A stretch of 57,127 nucleotides of DNA, from positions 1 through 57,127 of the forward strand of contig CACOHS010000006.1 in NCBI GenBank assembly GCA_902627055.1. Reading direction: 5' to 3'. This stretch comes from an uncultured SAR86 cluster bacterium (GTDB lineage Bacteria; Pseudomonadota; Gammaproteobacteria; Magnimaribacterales; D2472). The notes under the pieces were generated by a model. It was not told where the DNA came from, did no database searches, and worked only from the letters and a program-made list of their open reading frames with translations. How positions within the stretch are numbered: the stretch's first letter is position 1; the number at the start of each line of letters is the position of its first letter. This document shows, piece by piece, positions 4,661-15,068 of the stretch. Made by a program: the position numbers and the translations under genes.

Positions 4661-7477
4661 TCAAAAATTTTCCCATGAAAAATAAGACGTATCACGAAAA
4701 TCATTTCCTCGAATCTGAACAGTAACATTCATGAATTCACCATCAATTATGAATTTGTTGTTAAGATTTACGAGATCTTTTCGAGTTGTATTTGAAATAT
4801 GATTAGCAAGTGTCTTCTTGGTGTCAAATTTATAATTTCCTTCTTCCCAGTCATTAATCAAAGAAGAGACTTCTACATATATGTTTTCTGGCTTTTGATT
4901 AAGATCTTCTAACAGTGCTGTTTTTACATTTTTTATTGTCTTGCTGTCAACATTCTCAAGTGCTGCAGCAAAACCATATTGAAACTCCATCATTTTTTCT
5001 TTTAAATCTTGAAGCTCCGTGTTATCACTTACTATAGTCATGCCAATTACTGGATATTTATGAATCTCATAATCTAAGCTAAAAACTGAATATCCAAGTT
5101 GTTGATTAGATCGTAGTTCATTAAAAAATGAAGGGCTGAATAATTTATTGATCATTGAAAATTGAGCTTCAACCTGAAGAGATTGTTCAGGATAAATATA
5201 AATATCTGTCATACCAACACCATCTTTAGGAGTACTAATCTTAGTAATTTTTCCAGTTCCAGGTGTAACCTTAAAATTGTTTTCCATCCTCCAAGGAGAT
5301 TGTTGAGAAGTCTCTCCATATATATCACGCATCTCTTTAGCAAAATTTATAATTTTATCTGGGCTCTCAATGCCGTGAGAAAAATATCAATGAATATTGA
5401 TGATAAATATTCTTCATGAAATTTTGTAAGCCCTTCCAAGGTTGCCTGATCTAAGGCAGCCGATATTTCTTTTTTTGAGAAAAAAAATGGTCCCTGCTTA
5501 GTTGCTGTTGCAGCATAGTAGCTTAGTTGAGCAGAAATACCTTGCTCTGAAATACTGTCAAACGAATCTCTTAATGCCTTAACTCCATCTTTCAAATCAC
5601 GCTCAGTATATTGAAAATTTGCAAATTTAGATAAAAGATCTGAAGCATATTTTATTTGAGTTGATGTCCTGCCAAGTAATCCAAAGGTTGCATTGCCCTC
5701 AGTGTCGTAATTAGCAAATATATTTACACCATTTCGTTGACGAGCTCTTTGAAGAATCAATCGATGTTTTTTTTCTAAAGACTGCATTTGATATGAAAGC
5801 ATATGTTAAATTTTCTGCGCTTTTAGAAGGAATGGATGATTTTAAATTAATAACTAAAACGCCCTCTCTACCCATAAAATTTTGAGTGTGGGATAAAAAT
5901 GCTTGGACGCCTTTCTGATCATAAACTTTTTTCGGTGTATCGTATTGGCCTGATGAAGTAAATAACAGTTCTTCTGAATCATCGAGATTAATCACTTGAG
6001 GCTCGGGTAAGCTAAGGTCTGCAAACAAAAGATTTGAATTATAGTCATTAAAATTTAAATCAGTGACACGATAGCCCCCATCTGCATATTTTAGATCTAC
6101 CAAAATTTCTTCATCAGGACTTATATGATAAATTCGTGCAGTTTGAGGAGTCATTTTTGATAAAACATTTTCTATAGCACTAGAATCATAATCAGACGTA
6201 ATGTAAGAATAATCGATGATATGTTTAAGAGGAACATCATAAATACTGAAAGCAAATTGAACAGCTAAGCTCAAAGCCTCAGGAGCAGTGTAGTCTTCAA
6301 ACTGAATTTGGTTAATTCCTGCCAGTTCATCAAAAAATTCTTTTTTAATGCCGCTATCTTTAATTAAATCAATATAACGAAAAGTGTTTTCAATAATGGT
6401 ATCTTTATTATCAAGGCCCTTATCAGTCAGTGTATAAGAAATGAAAGCTGAGCCATCAGCACCCCAAAGAATTGGATCAATGCTAGCTGATCCACTTTCT
6501 ATTAAACCCTCTTCATTTAGAAAGCTCATTAGGGAATTGGGCTCCTGGGAATTCAACAGCATCTCAATGTATTCATTTGGTTTGGATCGCCACATTGAAC
6601 TGTTATTATCAACAGGGAATTCCATTACAAGCTGAGGGGCTTTTACCTTGCTTTTTATATAAATGTTCTTACCTAAATCTTCTAATCTATATGAATTTAC
6701 TAATGTTATTGGGCGTTCAACATTATTATTTTTGATCTTTGAGAAATATTTGGTGGCTAATTTTTTAAGTTCATTTGGACTCTGTTTACCCACCAATACA
6801 AGCTTCATAAGATTAGCAGAATAAAACTCCTCATAAAAATTTTTTAAATATTCAAGAAGTTCTGACTCATCAGTTGATAGAGTATCTTTATTTCCCACAC
6901 CCAACTTCAATCTTGGATGATCAGGATTTCCGGTATTAGCAGCTGTCCTTTGTTGAATAAATGCATCACTTTGTCTACTAAGTAGCCATTCTGAATTGAC
7001 CGCATTAATCTCCTTGCCAACCATAGTAGGATCAAACAGAGGATCTTTAACTGATGAGCTGAGTCTATCTAAAGCAGCGGGAAATTGTGAACTGTTAATT
7101 GAAAACAAATAAGTTGTTTGCTCTAAAGCAGTAAAGGCATTGGTATTACCACCATTTTCTTGAATAAACTGCATATATTCATTTGGTTTTGGATATTTTT
7201 TTGATCCCATAAATAACATATGCTCAAGGAAATGAGCAATTCCCTGAGCATTATCGGGATCTTGAAGTTGACCAACGCCAACGCTCAAGGTTGCTGCAGA
7301 AGTGACTAAATCAGGATCACTTACCGTTATTACTTCTATTCCATTTTTAAGGGTAAAGATATTGTATGTCCTTTGATCTGATGGGCTCTTGTTAACTGAA
7401 TCATCTGCAAAAACATCTCGCTCAAATGCAAAAGTAAAAGTAAATATTAAAATTAAATGGAATAAATATTTTTTCAT
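4661..7477 (-). pseudogene. M16 family zinc peptidase (protease III / insulysin-like), interrupted by two compensating frameshifts
   Basis: Read through both breaks, this is a 938-residue insulinase-family peptidase with a signal peptide (MKKYLFHLILIFTFTFAF...FA) and the inverted zinc motif HFLEH at residues 82-86, normal for periplasmic protease III-like enzymes that degrade peptides. The frame breaks first at an A8 run (bases 5767-5774); seven A's would continue cleanly from VFRKK into HRLILQRA. It returns to the first frame near 5380-5384, where one extra base would give IDIFSHGIESPDK. The intact pieces are 5711-7477, 5347-5802 and 4661-5332. Overall length and conserved content outside the breaks argue for sequence indels rather than old decay. 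Real inactivation remains possible. Confidence 0.85.
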
Positions 7478-7544: not shown

Positions 7545-9638
7545 TCAATCTACCCATTGCATTGGTACTTGTTGTTGAGGATTGAAAACATTTTGAGGCC
7601 CATAAGCAGGAAAAGCCTTTGCAGCCATATCTATTTGTTTTTGCGAAATGAATTCACTTTCTGTTAATTGAAAAACATCTAAGCCTCTTACAATTTCAGT
7701 TGCATAAATTTTTCCACGATAATAGTAAACAGACCAGTAACCACCGGTAATTAAATTTTCTTCATCGATTGGTCCTCTATCAAAGTACCCAATTTCAATA
7801 GGATTATTAGAATCAGTAAAATCCATCAACGATATGCCGCCTTGATACCAAGCTTGAATAAAAATATCTCTGCCAGGGACAGGAATGATTGAGCCATTAT
7901 GAGCAACACAATTTTCAGATTCTTTCTGAGGAGCTGGCATTTTGTAATGACTCTGAAAAAGTAATTTTTTTTCAACTATGTCATATACAGCATTGGCTCC
8001 CCAATTCAACGGATCCCATGCTCTGCACCTAGGCCTTCCTCCGCCACCCCATTCATCTGTAAAAACTACTTTTGTTCCATCGTTATTAAATGTTGCTGAG
8101 TGCCAGTAAGCGAAACCAGAATCTGTAACTACATCTAATCTCTTAGGATTATATGGATCAGATATATCAAACAGGATCCCATTTCCTGAACATGCTCCTG
8201 CAGCAATATTTGCGGATGGAAATACTGTAATGTCGTGACATTGATCAGTTCGTGATGTTCTTTGAGTATCATCACCATGATCGCCTCCTCGCCAAAGACC
8301 AGCCAAGACTCCGCTTTCATCATCAGCAAAAACAGTAGGGCTACTTACAATTCTAGATTTCTCAGGATGCTGAATTGGAATTTCAATAATATCAATCCTA
8401 AATAATGCAGTTCTGTTATCCCCCGGTATATCTTCAAAACAAGACTCTAATTCTTCTTGATCACGAACATTGGAGGTCCCAGAATTATAGACAATTATCT
8501 TTTGTTGATCAGAGCTCATACTTACCACAGAATGTGTGTGAGAGCCTCTGCAGGTTTGTACAAGGCCAACTTGTTGAGGTTTTAATAGATCGGAAATATC
8601 GAAGATTCTAATACCTCTAAATCTTTCTTCTGATGGCTCAGAATTAACTCCCTGTAAACCACAATCAACTCTGCCTCTATTTTGTTCAACTGACATGATT
8701 AATAAGTCTCCAACAATAGAAACGTCACCTTGTCCGCCTGGACAGATTATGGATGATTTAAGCTGAGGTATACCCATGTTATCTAATTCATATATGTTGA
8801 ACCCATGGTAGCTACCTGCAACAAGTATATTATCTTTAAACGCCATGTCGGTGTTTGAAAAACTAAGCATTGGATATCTATTATTTCTTGATTTCTGTTC
8901 AATTGATTTTGGTTCATCGGCATCATCGGAATCTTCATTAACTGTATCTTGAGGCCTTAACTCCATAGGATTACTTGGGTCAAAAAAACCAACAGGTTTC
9001 TTGAGTGAAATTAATTTTTCAAGATTGTATATAGCCTCATCTGCATGATATAAACCTGCTGAAAGATTAGCTCTAGGGTCATTAGATAACCCAATTAATA
9101 GACCGTTCATTCTTTCAATCTCAATTGCTTGATCATTTGTTAAATCAGCAACAAATTCGTTAAGAGTGGGATCATAGGCTGAACCAGATTGATCTCTTAA
9201 ATCTTCAACCATTTCAATTGCTCCGTCATGGTGATGAATCATTAACCTTAAAAATAGTCTATCAAAATCGACGCCATTGCTTTCTTTGAGTAGGTTGATT
9301 TCTTCGGGTGATGCCATTCCTGCCATCTTCATCATTTTATGATTATGCATGTGATGAATGGGCTCATTCCTGTCCTGAAGCCAACTCTTCATAAACAACA
9401 TCTCATCTTCTTGTGATGAACCAATCCTTCCTGCTAAATCAAGTATGTTTTCTGAATTAGTTCTAGATGTTGCTAATCTAGACATGAGCAAAGCCTGATC
9501 ATGATGAGTAATCATCATTTGTAAAAAATGAACATCATGGGAGTTATAGCTGGTGTCGGCTATTGCAATTGCTTTTTGCTCATTTATTTCAATTGAAGAA
9601 TTGCCAGGTGCGCTGGGAAGAATAATCGGTGCACTCAT
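7545..9638 (-). CDS. DUF305 domain plus LVIVD-like beta-propeller protein, exported
   Basis: The 697-residue readable frame begins with a DUF305 (ferritin-like) region containing two His-rich helices, FLQMMITHHDQALLMS near residues 39-53 and FLRLMIHHHDGAIEMV near 129-143, with a Met/His-rich linker HHMHNHKMMKMAGM. Such residues suggest metal, perhaps copper, binding. Residues 250-690 look like repeated LVIVD-type propeller blades (NILVAGSYHGFNIYEL, IRIFDISDLLKPQQVG, GISLMDFTDSNNPIEIG). No ribosome binding site precedes the ATG at 9638. An out-of-frame ATG at 9687 would supply a signal peptide if one base of a T7 run (in coding sense) were absent, so the true protein is probably about 713 residues and exported. 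Function is unknown. Confidence 0.78.
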   Translation of the reverse strand: MSAPIILPSAPGNSSIEINEQKAIAIADTSYNSHDVHFLQMMITHHDQALLMSRLATSRTNSENILDLAGRIGSSQEDEMLFMKSWLQDRNEPIHHMHNHKMMKMAGMASPEEINLLKESNGVDFDRLFLRLMIHHHDGAIEMVEDLRDQSGSAYDPTLNEFVADLTNDQAIEIERMNGLLIGLSNDPRANLSAGLYHADEAIYNLEKLISLKKPVGFFDPSNPMELRPQDTVNEDSDDADEPKSIEQKSRNNRYPMLSFSNTDMAFKDNILVAGSYHGFNIYELDNMGIPQLKSSIICPGGQGDVSIVGDLLIMSVEQNRGRVDCGLQGVNSEPSEERFRGIRIFDISDLLKPQQVGLVQTCRGSHTHSVVSMSSDQQKIIVYNSGTSNVRDQEELESCFEDIPGDNRTALFRIDIIEIPIQHPEKSRIVSSPTVFADDESGVLAGLWRGGDHGDDTQRTSRTDQCHDITVFPSANIAAGACSGNGILFDISDPYNPKRLDVVTDSGFAYWHSATFNNDGTKVVFTDEWGGGGRPRCRAWDPLNWGANAVYDIVEKKLLFQSHYKMPAPQKESENCVAHNGSIIPVPGRDIFIQAWYQGGISLMDFTDSNNPIEIGYFDRGPIDEENLITGGYWSVYYYRGKIYATEIVRGLDVFQLTESEFISQKQIDMAAKAFPAYGPQNVFNPQQQVPMQWVD

Positions 9639-9687
9639 TATTGAAGAAGAGAGAAAAAAACAAGAAAGTTAAGTTAATTTTTTTCAT
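9639..9687 (-). other. Probable missing 5' end (signal peptide) of the DUF305 gene
   Basis: From the ATG at 9687 the - strand reads MKKINLTFLFF before slipping out of frame at a 7-base homopolymer (bases 9654-9660). With six bases in that run it continues LSSSIMSA and joins the frame at 9638, making a standard Sec signal peptide with a cleavage site near MSA. I infer a one-base insertion error or a real frameshift. The join cannot be proved from this copy alone. Confidence 0.6.
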
Positions 9688-9710: not shown

Positions 9711-9741
9711 AAAAAAAGGGGTCGTTGAGACCCCTTTTTTT
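9711..9741 (-). terminator. Rho-independent terminator of TonB receptor 1
   Basis: A perfect GGGGTC / GACCCC stem with a 5-nt loop, flanked by A7 and T7 tracts. It lies 23 nt after the stop of TonB receptor 1 on the - strand and just ahead of the DUF305 gene, so it should end receptor transcription. The symmetric tracts would also allow function in the other direction. Confidence 0.9.
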
Positions 9742-9763: not shown

Positions 9764-12700
9764 TTAATATTCGTATCTAAAACCAAAGCTGAATGTTCTT
9801 GGAACATAATAACCTGGTAGATAACACTCATCACCTGAACATTGCTGATCATCAAGGTTAGTTGCACGAACTACAAATGACATATTTTCATTATAGTCAT
9901 ATACAACACCACCGCTGAATAGCCAGTAGCCATCCATTTCAAATGGATATGTTCTACCTGTGCTACCATCAGCATTCATATATACATATTTGTCTGGTTG
10001 AGTTTCTTTATTCCAGTAGAAGTCAGTTAAACCACCATCTGTATATACACCGTCAACATATACATACCAATCGTCATATGACCAGTCCCATGTATGTAGA
10101 TATCTGTTTTCAGGTTTTGAGAATGCTCCAGTAGTATCAACTACAGGTGAAGCAGCAGTTGCTTGGAAGGCGTCTTTTTTCTCTTGGTATCCTTTTAGGT
10201 TGTATCCAATGTTACCTATACCACCTGCAAATATTTCTTCGACATCAATATCGTATGCAAGTTCTACAATGTATGCCTCATAGTCATATGTAGAACCGTT
10301 AGATGTTCCACCTTGAACACCGATGGAACCAGGATTGAAACCATCCATCTGATTGTTAGCAAGACGGAAGACTTGTGAACAGAATGAATTCGGGAATGAG
10401 CCTGGATCAGCATCATAACAAGCAGACATAACTTCATCAGGGTTCAAATCAATAATTGCATCTGTTAGATCTACAGCAATGTAATCAAGAGCAATTCTTA
10501 GGTTTCCTGGAATTTCTACTGAAGTAAATGGAAGATTCGTTGGTGTGTATATAACACCAATGTTTGTTGAATCAGATTTTTCAGTTGATAAATTCGGGTT
10601 ACCTCCTCTATATGTGAAAATTGATGCAGTTTCAGCTGTTGATGCGAATGGCTGAACGATTCCAGCAGCAGCACAGTTTGCAGCTCTATTATCTGGTGCA
10701 GGACCAGAGTTTACATTTGATCTATCACATGGATCATCGATGATGTAACTTGAGATAAACTGGGGCTGGAAAGCCTCTCCAATAGCTGGAGATCTCACTG
10801 TATTTTGCTGATTTACACGAAGTGCTAATGCTGAATTTACCCTGACAACCAATGAAAGACTGTCTACGTTATCTTCACCAGAAACACTATGATCCATTTC
10901 ACGATAAGCACCTGAAAGAGTTACTTCTTCAATGAAAGGAATGTTCATGTCAGGAGAAACAATTGGAGCAACAACCTCCATGTAAGTATCGGAAGTAGAG
11001 AACTTACCAGTTAAGGCAGTCATACCACCGGAACCATCTCCAACATACGCTTCATCAAATAATGAATCTTTAAATTTGTATGATTCTGTTCTTTCTTCGT
11101 ATCCAACAAGAACTGAAAGTTCACCAGCTGGGAGATCTACAACAGGTCCTGAGATATAACCAAAGTTATAATTTTGGTTAGTTGTGGTTCTTGTTGAAAC
11201 CATGCCACCAACGTAATCTATTGCAGCATCAGACATTTGTGTACCATCTCCAAAAGGATTTAAAGGAACACAGTCACCTGGCTCACCAAGAATGAAATAT
11301 GATGGATCGTTTGTTCCACCAGGCTGCATATAAGGATTTTGATATAAATCGTTTGTGTAAGCCCCTGCACCTAGTTGATTGTATCTACAATCGATAGTGC
11401 CGTCAGCTAGAAGAACTGAATCAAGAGCAGCAAACAATCTTGATTTAATAATGTCAGGTCTTGAATTAACTCTTCTTGATTCACCATCTGTAACACCAGC
11501 AGAGTAGTTAAAAGTTCTGTCTCCAATGTCAAAGTCACCATCAATTCTCAAATTAAAGACTCTGTTGTCCACATTATCTTGATCTTCTCCACCCAATGAT
11601 TTGTAATATGGGCCCCAAGCTTTTCCGAATCGGAATGTTTTATTACCATAAGCGTTTACGCCTGGTTGAACTAAGTTTGCACAAATAAATGCTGAATCTT
11701 CAGCACTTAAGAATGGATGATTACATTCAAGTACAAGTGTATCTGAAGGTGATCCGAATAAACCAGTGTTGTAAAAGCCTTGAGTACTTTCATCGATTGC
11801 TTCATATGTGGTTAGATAAACAGAACCAGAAACTCTCATTCTAGGAGTAACATCGAATCTACCAGTTGTTACATAATTGAACTTTTCAATCGGAGTTGTA
11901 TATGCATCTGGATCGTGTCTTAGTCCAAAGTTTAGACCATCACCGCCTCTGTATCTGAGCGAACCATCAGTAGAAATACCTGGTGTATTAATTTGAAGTT
12001 TACCAGAACTGCTAAATCCGTAGAAATTATTTATGGGAATACCTGGCTCAGGAGCACCTAAAATATTCGGCCCATAACCAAGAGCGCCTGGTGTGTCAAT
12101 TAAGTCACCAAATGCGATACTTCCGTTCGGGCTAATTCCAAAGTATGTGAAAGACTCACAGGCTGGAAATACAAAATTTTGACCTGGGACTCTACCATTG
12201 GAGTCTGTTCCAAGAGCCTTACATTTAACATCTGCGGGGATATCCATAACTCTTGAACCACCAGTATTTGTATAGTCAAGAGAAAATGTTAAATTTGCTT
12301 TGCCATCAAGGAAATTACCACCAAAGAGCATTTTATAACCCCTTTGTAAGTCTAAGTCTTCAAAAATGTTGTTATGGTTGTAGGAAAATCTGAATCCTTC
12401 AAAGTCATCTTTCAGAATGTAATTCACAACACCAGCAACCGCGTCAGAACCGTATACAGCAGCACCACCAATGTTAATAACTTCAACTCGGTCAATAAGC
12501 ATGGTTGGAATGTTGTTAACATCAACCTGTCCACCACCATAACCGTTAGAAGAAACAAATCTGTTTCCATTAACTGTTACAAGAGTTCTTTGTGAACCAA
12601 GTCTTAAATTATTAATTGCACTACTTCCATTAGGACCACTTTCTGTCCCAGCAGCTGATGGCAATCTAGTTACGGCAGAACTAGCGTAGTCAAAAAGTCT

Positions 12701-12895
12701 ATTTTCAAAGTCTTCGCCTGTTACGATAGTAACTGGTACTGGACTTTCAAATGTGGTTTTTGATTTAATTCTTGAACCGATAATGGTTATCTCTTCAACT
12801 TCAACAACCTGCTCAACATCAGCATCGCTGTTGTTGTCTTGAGCAAATGCAGTTACTGCGAATAACCCAAACAATAAAAATAGTTTGTTTTTCAT
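9764..12895 (-). CDS. TonB-dependent outer membrane receptor 1
   Basis: A 1043-residue outer membrane transporter. A signal peptide (MKNKLFLLFGLFAVTAFA) is followed by a TonB-box-like EEITIIGSR near residue 34, and a plug domain about residues 50-165 with VPVTIVTGEDF, RTLVTVNGNRF, IDRVEVINIGGAAVYGSDAVAGVVNYI. The remainder is a 22-strand-type barrel ending in the aromatic FRYEY. The large, loop-rich barrel resembles the CirA/oar-like receptors abundant in marine Gammaproteobacteria for import of organic oligomers rather than small siderophores; the ligand cannot be told. The start has a strong AAAGGAAAGGGG ribosome binding site. Its neighbours (M16 peptidase, alanine dehydrogenase) hint at peptide substrates, which is only inference. 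Confidence 0.95.
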   Translation of the reverse strand: MKNKLFLLFGLFAVTAFAQDNNSDADVEQVVEVEEITIIGSRIKSKTTFESPVPVTIVTGEDFENRLFDYASSAVTRLPSAAGTESGPNGSSAINNLRLGSQRTLVTVNGNRFVSSNGYGGGQVDVNNIPTMLIDRVEVINIGGAAVYGSDAVAGVVNYILKDDFEGFRFSYNHNNIFEDLDLQRGYKMLFGGNFLDGKANLTFSLDYTNTGGSRVMDIPADVKCKALGTDSNGRVPGQNFVFPACESFTYFGISPNGSIAFGDLIDTPGALGYGPNILGAPEPGIPINNFYGFSSSGKLQINTPGISTDGSLRYRGGDGLNFGLRHDPDAYTTPIEKFNYVTTGRFDVTPRMRVSGSVYLTTYEAIDESTQGFYNTGLFGSPSDTLVLECNHPFLSAEDSAFICANLVQPGVNAYGNKTFRFGKAWGPYYKSLGGEDQDNVDNRVFNLRIDGDFDIGDRTFNYSAGVTDGESRRVNSRPDIIKSRLFAALDSVLLADGTIDCRYNQLGAGAYTNDLYQNPYMQPGGTNDPSYFILGEPGDCVPLNPFGDGTQMSDAAIDYVGGMVSTRTTTNQNYNFGYISGPVVDLPAGELSVLVGYEERTESYKFKDSLFDEAYVGDGSGGMTALTGKFSTSDTYMEVVAPIVSPDMNIPFIEEVTLSGAYREMDHSVSGEDNVDSLSLVVRVNSALALRVNQQNTVRSPAIGEAFQPQFISSYIIDDPCDRSNVNSGPAPDNRAANCAAAGIVQPFASTAETASIFTYRGGNPNLSTEKSDSTNIGVIYTPTNLPFTSVEIPGNLRIALDYIAVDLTDAIIDLNPDEVMSACYDADPGSFPNSFCSQVFRLANNQMDGFNPGSIGVQGGTSNGSTYDYEAYIVELAYDIDVEEIFAGGIGNIGYNLKGYQEKKDAFQATAASPVVDTTGAFSKPENRYLHTWDWSYDDWYVYVDGVYTDGGLTDFYWNKETQPDKYVYMNADGSTGRTYPFEMDGYWLFSGGVVYDYNENMSFVVRATNLDDQQCSGDECYLPGYYVPRTFSFGFRYEY

Positions 12896-14465: not shown

Positions 14466-15068
14466 ATGTATTCAATCATCAAAACAAGTAGTGCGCGTAT
14501 CTCTGATACTTTCGCATACTCAATGACTAAATTTTTTAGATTCATAGCTGATAGCTTTTTTTTAAAAAGGTACGGACACAGAGCTGTTGTTCTTGAAACA
14601 GTTGCAGGTGTACCCGGTATGGTTGCCGGAGTATGGATGCATTTCAAAAGCTTAAGAAAAATGAAGGCAGGCTATGGAGAGCAAATTAGAGAGATGCTTT
14701 CAGAAGCTGAAAACGAGCGAATGCATTTAATGTTTTTTATAGAAATTGCTAAGCCAAATATTTTTGAGAGATTTATAGTTCTATCCTCTCAATTAATTTT
14801 CGGGATATTTTATTTATTCATGTACGTATGCTTTACAAGAACAGCTCACAGAATGATTGGATATTTTGAAGATGAAGCTGTTAATAGTTACACAGAATAT
14901 CTCGATATGGTTAAATCAGGAAAGGTTGAAGACACTCCCGCCCCTGCTTTGGCAATTAGTTATTACAAGCTACCTACTGATGCAAAATTGTCAGATGTAA
15001 TTAGATGTGTAAGAGCCGATGAACAGCATCATAGTAAGACCAATCACGAATACGCAAACAATTTATAA
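14466..15068 (+). CDS. aox: Alternative oxidase (cyanide-insensitive ubiquinol oxidase)
   Basis: A di-iron ubiquinol oxidase that passes electrons from quinol directly to oxygen without pumping protons. The 200 residues contain all ligand blocks of the family: LET with E44, ENERMH with E84 and H87, YFEDEA with E135/E137, and ADEQHH with E186 and H189. The highly conserved GVPGMVAGVWMH follows the first ligand, and a hydrophobic segment at residues 104-123 should insert into the inner membrane as a monotopic protein. There is no clear ribosome binding site before the ATG at 14466. Bacterial alternative oxidases are uncommon. No nitric oxide sensor or other known regulator gene is adjacent. Confidence 0.93.
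   Translation: MYSIIKTSSARISDTFAYSMTKFFRFIADSFFLKRYGHRAVVLETVAGVPGMVAGVWMHFKSLRKMKAGYGEQIREMLSEAENERMHLMFFIEIAKPNIFERFIVLSSQLIFGIFYLFMYVCFTRTAHRMIGYFEDEAVNSYTEYLDMVKSGKVEDTPAPALAISYYKLPTDAKLSDVIRCVRADEQHHSKTNHEYANNL

Follow-up and report, generated by a model that had tools for sequence, protein, structure and literature searches.

A single open frame of an uncultured SAR86 cluster bacterium joins a DUF305 domain to a seven-bladed β-propeller. The architecture is real, widespread and strongly conserved, and it is built from known kinds of domain; the literature searched, with preprints and most subscription journals lying outside the search, contained neither a description of the fusion nor a function for it. 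Its main points of interest are a pore signature shared with the choice-of-anchor B proteins and the consistent pairing with DUF305. We tentatively read the protein as a metalloenzyme that is exported and has a CopM-like loader, which binds copper, built into its chain. The computed basis of this reading is the architecture itself, the export signal of the relatives, the invariance of two residue sets (DUF305 and pore), the obligate pairing in our surveys, and the pore pattern of choice-of-anchor B proteins.

The fusion gene and its product

The window, meaning the whole stretch of 57,127 nucleotides that was analysed, is one contig of a 1.33 Mb assembly in 36 contigs. The fusion gene (P0001) occupies 7545–9638 (−) and translates, free of stops, into 697 amino acids. 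Next to it, a signal-peptide-like start (9639–9687, (−)) opens at the ATG at 9687 and begins MKKINLTFLFFSLFF..., in a different frame from the 697-residue ORF. In relatives, for example at locus L003, this signal peptide is intact and in frame, and a simple hydrophobicity script found a signal-like start at 79 of 80 loci, with a lipobox-like pattern in 8 of those 79. Because of these two observations, export of the protein is supported, as a preliminary description made from the letters alone had claimed, and the frame break in the window contig is probably a sequence error. The adjoining M16 peptidase gene (4661–7477, (−)) is split into three ORFs (5711–7477, 5347–5802 and 4661–5332) and is a single frame of 936 residues in the relative L058. 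Together, the broken peptidase gene and the out-of-frame start of the fusion gene point to indel errors in that stretch of the contig.

The fusion that the preliminary description had proposed held up when the protein was searched and modelled, with DUF305 placed by Pfam and a seven-bladed propeller modelled by AlphaFold2 in the same ORF. For the counts of invariant residues that follow, the window protein was aligned with those of 77 loci (78 rows, 60–90% identical to the window protein); L115, L132 and the truncated L128 were omitted before counting.

A DUF305 half resembling CopM

DUF305 (PF03713) covers residues 35–181 (9096–9536, (−)) along the entire model, positions 1–151 of 151, with 134.2 bits against a curated cut-off of 27 (E 5e-39); a weaker DUF4142 match overlaps it. 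The C-terminal half of the 697-residue protein matched no Pfam family at E ≤ 1. In the PDB, the DUF305 half matches 3bt5 and 5fej. AlphaFold2 places helices at residues 33–59, 63–89, 122–148 and 157–183, and a His/Met-rich linker (residues 88–110; 9309–9377, (−)), which includes HHMHNHKMMKM at residues 95–105, joins the two helix pairs. The domain contains two MxxHH motifs, one formed by M42, H45 and H46 (9501–9515, (−)) and the other by M133, H136 and H137 (9228–9242, (−)). Both are invariant in all 78 rows, as are M83, W86, M108 and M143. The linker holds at least two histidines in 77 of the 78 rows, and its composition of 14% His and 14% Met compares with 2.6% and 2.7% across the whole proteins. 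The putative metal-binding character that had been read from the His- and Met-rich sequence is thus in keeping with the conservation of the motifs and the enrichment of the linker.

These features resemble CopM, a DUF305 protein described in passages of PMC4335983 as periplasmic and preferring Cu(I), whose type acts in copper resistance. Like the fusion, CopM/DUF305 proteins (PF03713, NF049983) have two helical MxxHH repeats, are rich in His and Met, and are exported. CopM stands alone, whereas in the window protein the CopM-like domain is joined to a propeller; against the CopM model NF049983 the fusion scores 57.2 bits and does not reach the equivalog cut-off of 90. A DUF305 survey of 200 Pseudomonadota genomes gave 66 matches in 38 of them, 5 in the fusion, 2 in a split pair and 59 elsewhere (the flanks of 4 of these 59 were read), in agreement with the earlier remark that DUF305 is usually a stand-alone domain.

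The propeller and its pore

In the AlphaFold2 model (pLDDT 84.5 and pTM 0.82 for the full protein, pTM 0.87 for the propeller alone), residues from about 262 to 658–660 (7665–8855, (−)) form a seven-bladed β-propeller, whose last blade may be closed by the strand at 206–213. Blade by blade, the innermost strands start at residues 262, 306, 368, 467, 512, 578 and 633. Within two residues of these starts lie D264 (8847–8849), D305 (8724–8726), H369 (8532–8534), H468 (which with D469 spans 8232–8237), H513 (8100–8102), H580 (7899–7901) and W635 (7734–7736), all on the reverse strand in the region 7734–8849. Since these seven residues take equivalent positions on the seven innermost strands, the model suggests that, by symmetry, they encircle the central channel at one of its openings. 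All of them are invariant in the 78 rows, together with H367, D469, E529 (8052–8054, (−)), W597 and eight cysteines, the latter fitting an exported disulfide protein. Judged from the alignment, the invariance of residues across all rows exceeds chance.

A bound metal in an enzyme was one of the roles considered in the preliminary description, and the invariant D/D/H/H/H/H set of the pore speaks for this option. A different role for the protein would be copper resistance or scavenging, with DUF305 sequestering periplasmic copper and the propeller serving as a non-catalytic scaffold or binding platform. The resistance role of CopM-type proteins (PMC4335983, in part) points this way and the propeller fold taken alone is compatible with binding roles; a pore ring that does not vary in any of the 78 rows, which are 60–90% identical to the window protein, argues against such a scaffold, and so does the recurrence of the ring in proteins that have no DUF305 domain, described below. 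We therefore consider sequestration unlikely.

Relatives of the propeller

The propeller had been called LVIVD-like, and this stands only as a distant kinship: the fusion protein has no Pfam LVIVD repeat at E ≤ 1, and NCBIfam matches choice_anch_B (TIGR04312) at residues 476–655 with an E-value of 7e-13 and 48.5 bits, under the cut-off of 100. Compared by profile with five bona fide choice-of-anchor B proteins (L032, L034, L036, L138 and L139), the propeller reached a probability of 97.5% locally (E 5e-12, over the three blades at the C-terminal end) and of 98.7% globally. In an unforced joint alignment D305, H369, H468, D469, H513, E529, H580 and W635 are in register in all five, and the counterpart of D264, an ND[IV]W motif, is present in four. 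The resulting pattern D-D-H-HD-H-E-H-W is defined in the present analysis and is not a published family definition; the literature searched contained no description of it and no paper naming the family. By sequence comparison, the shared pattern may mark a metal site in the choice-of-anchor B family too. These LVIVD-type proteins thus have a homologous propeller with the same pore pattern, but they differ from the fusion, which carries DUF305 and, by reading, no evident C-terminal anchor.

Among solved structures, Foldseek ranks the Sphingobium phosphotriesterase 5hrm first with both models (E 3.5e-13 and 1.5e-12), ahead of the next entry by about three orders of magnitude or more. The similarity amounts to 14% identity and a TM-score of about 0.5 on the propeller alone. 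The phmmer match to 5hrm is weak (E 0.003–0.015) and is the only meaningful PDB sequence match of the propeller alone (E 0.003). The title of the 5hrm paper speaks of a seven-bladed propeller that has a binuclear metal centre. This TCM1 phosphotriesterase or haloalkylphosphorus hydrolase (5hrm, 5ioj) agrees with the fusion in blade number and differs from it in that no DUF305 was reported among the matches found. The 50 best matches of VIA-align were generic WD40 propellers (Z about 29), the phosphotriesterase not being among those 50, and this list neither supports nor excludes the model-based kinship. PHROGs gave no match.

It is because of 5hrm that a hydrolase using another metal is the main rival explanation. 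In that case the propeller would be a metal-dependent hydrolase, similar to phosphotriesterases or lactonases, with Mn, Zn or Ca in its pore, and DUF305 would be a separate copper-protective or docking domain that does not feed the pore. A precedent for such separate roles is the Deinococcus DrSOD, in which, according to extracts of PMC12362111, a Cu/Zn superoxide dismutase is fused to a calcium-dependent propeller lactonase. DrSOD resembles the fusion in naturally joining a copper-binding domain to a propeller and differs in having another copper domain, six blades and a calcium site. Taken with the leading position of 5hrm in both structure searches and in the sequence search, this makes the hydrolase conceivable; the steady pairing with DUF305, fused and split, which suggests a shared metal, and the richness of the pore set in histidine leave it doubtful.

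The copper link was the reason for considering SELENBP1/methanethiol oxidase (SBP56, PF05694). Excerpts of PMC10362175 describe SELENBP1 as a copper-dependent, seven-bladed propeller with His, Asp and Glu in its central cavity. It thus shares the blade number and the His/Asp pore with the fusion, but lacks a fused copper domain. Membership in this family was rejected, as there is no relation by sequence or by profile (hhalign Prob 0.8); PF05694 had no Pfam match in the window proteins and none in the bacterium's own genome.

Fused and split pairs

In 398 Pseudomonadota genomes, all 15 propellers found are linked to DUF305, 11 by fusion and 4 by an immediately adjacent but separate DUF305 gene. 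The four split pairs (genomes G738, G567, G479 and G750) belong to one alphaproteobacterial family, in which G479 and G750 have the fusion as well as a split pair (loci L046, L047, L052 and L053). Outside this phylum, Nonomuraea gerenzanensis has two stand-alone propellers in tandem and, divergent from them, a stand-alone DUF305 gene that is lipoprotein-like and scores 87.8 bits with the CopM model. One propeller, the first in the tandem, is 45% identical to the window propeller. The second (L183:7323-8705) has, by reading, a leucine in place of H369, a natural pore variant, so that this histidine is not universal.

As fused and separate-neighbour forms both occur, in the alphaproteobacterial family and in Nonomuraea, we argue that the pairing is functional and that DUF305 and the propeller probably work on one task. 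In a tree rooted with choice-of-anchor B proteins all fused propellers form one group (support 84/87), to which the four split propellers are sister, and the branch to the outgroup is very long.

A further pair was reported in Starkeya novella, where, in passages of PMC6527743, a DUF305 gene and a propeller gene are separated by 12 bp, are controlled by the ECF sigma factor RpoE1 and are induced on tetrathionate. This regulation, together with the presence of a propeller and a metal domain in one protein, would fit a protein that senses copper or a ligand at the surface or in the periplasm, a role that the preliminary description had also entertained. It seems very unlikely, for no signalling gene is conserved beside the fusion gene among 110 neighbours scanned, and the Starkeya propeller is at most a putative homologue of that in the fusion.

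Distribution

Matches to the fusion protein were found in 55 of the 100 genomes that made up a sample around the window. In a sample of the class, 10 of 369 genomes match, 4 of them at full length, and of these 4 only G384 (61%) lies outside the order, and in a sample of the phylum 13 of 398 genomes match at E ≤ 1e-20. A collection of named species encodes relatives in at least 563 of 592 candidate stretches. The best 80 of these at least 563 loci include SAR86, SAR92, Woeseiaceae, Halieaceae, Microbulbifer, Lysobacterales, Erythrobacteraceae, Parvularculaceae, Kordiimonas, Acidobacteriota and others, and the nearest named relative among the matches listed, at 90% identity, belongs to the SAR86 cluster. 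The relatives thus come from SAR86 and further Gammaproteobacteria, from Alphaproteobacteria and from Acidobacteriota. The preliminary description had regarded the occurrence of this architecture in many genomes with a known function as the finding that would refute its reading; the many genomes are there, and the literature searched yielded no function. Among the 42 rows of a tree, four from Acidobacteriota cluster as a starred group nested within the proteobacterial rows and one more is placed elsewhere among these, and this nesting at two places suggests lateral transfer.

Gene neighbourhood

Upstream of the fusion gene, and judged to be outside its unit, lies a gene for a TonB-dependent receptor with a Plug domain (9764–12895, (−); Pfam). 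The preliminary description had taken this receptor as a clue to function and had mentioned metal delivery, in which the fusion protein would be a periplasmic partner of the receptor for the import of a metal or metallophore. The receptor gene immediately precedes the fusion gene, in the same orientation, in the window and, judged by reading, at the loci L058, L059 and L082, the only places where this was seen. In all four, an intrinsic terminator separates the two genes, with z-scores of −4.2 (window), −4.0, −3.7 and −2.1; that of the window is a hairpin with a T-run at 9711–9741 (−) with a dG of −18.5 kcal/mol, which a simple terminator scanner did not pick up, and the terminator region of L003 has the same sequence as that of L058. 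An operon with the receptor was rejected on account of this terminator. Elsewhere the neighbours differ, Plug domains occurring in 4 of 110 scanned immediate neighbours and the strand agreeing in 46 of 77 upstream and 41 of 76 downstream neighbours, close to chance. The receptor was accordingly dropped as a clue, and a role as its partner is highly improbable.

The 110 neighbours scanned, out of 148, contain 160 Pfam families, none in more than four of them. The 38 left out were repeats from close relatives, all four neighbours of L058 and L059 (by reading, of the TonB receptor and M16 type) and some others. Blast clustering of the neighbours revealed no conserved partner gene, nor did a better gene caller. 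The 25 commonest families of the 110 neighbours include none for copper, in a scan in which families in one neighbour only are unlisted and single copper genes would be missed. This bears out the earlier remark on missing copper genes as regards conserved neighbours, and counts against copper sequestration as well as against the metalloenzyme. By reading, one locus (L045, in G579) has a His-rich, CopB-looking neighbour. A heavy-metal P-type ATPase is the usual copper setting of DUF305, and a stand-alone DUF305 gene (L152:2222-3427) does lie, by reading, beside a gene of this appearance, unlike the fusion. The same window, from a small SAR86-like genome, also encodes an alternative oxidase (14466–15068, (+); PF01786, E 4e-67). 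With a terminator behind the TonB receptor and without conserved neighbours, the fusion gene is best read as a solitary unit, fitting a self-contained enzyme.

A proposed function

If the protein is a metalloenzyme with its own loader, as we tentatively propose, it would be exported to the periplasm or the outer surface and fold with disulfides. The DUF305 domain, with its two MxxHH motifs and its His/Met-rich loop, would capture copper outside the cytoplasm, as CopM does, and would hand it to the pore site or keep it near. The propeller would hold the active site, in which the His/Asp ring at the channel entrance would bind one or two metal ions and perform the chemistry. The reaction is a guess, small-substrate oxidation, as by the copper-dependent SELENBP1, being placed slightly above hydrolysis, as by the propeller phosphotriesterase. 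Past export and residue conservation these steps are what we infer, including that the pore binds a metal, that the metal is copper, and that DUF305 hands it over.

Several points weigh against the metalloenzyme. A structural role could also account for the conservation of the pore residues, and the leucine at the H369 position of the second Nonomuraea propeller departs from the ring. The closest solved relative, 5hrm, is weak in sequence and, to our knowledge, not a copper enzyme. In addition, the best 50 VIA-align matches are only generic propellers, and profile comparison with SELENBP1-type proteins was negative. Precedents exist for the separate parts of the proposal, SELENBP1 having copper at a propeller cavity and the Deinococcus protein joining a copper domain to a propeller enzyme (PMC10362175 and PMC12362111, both in part).

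In a wider and more speculative reading, which we regard as doubtful, the propeller of the fusion and of all the choice-of-anchor B/LVIVD superfamily would be an unrecognised class of metalloenzymes marked by the D-D-H-HD-H-E-H-W pore, and its DUF305 form a copper enzyme with an in-chain chaperone, widespread in the surface ocean. Hundreds of genomes, including those of the abundant SAR86 cluster, carry a DUF305-propeller protein without an assigned role. The invariant pore offers a concrete and testable hypothesis for a large family of uncharacterised propellers, and the pairing with DUF305 in both fused and split form would provide a simple system for the delivery of copper to an exported enzyme.
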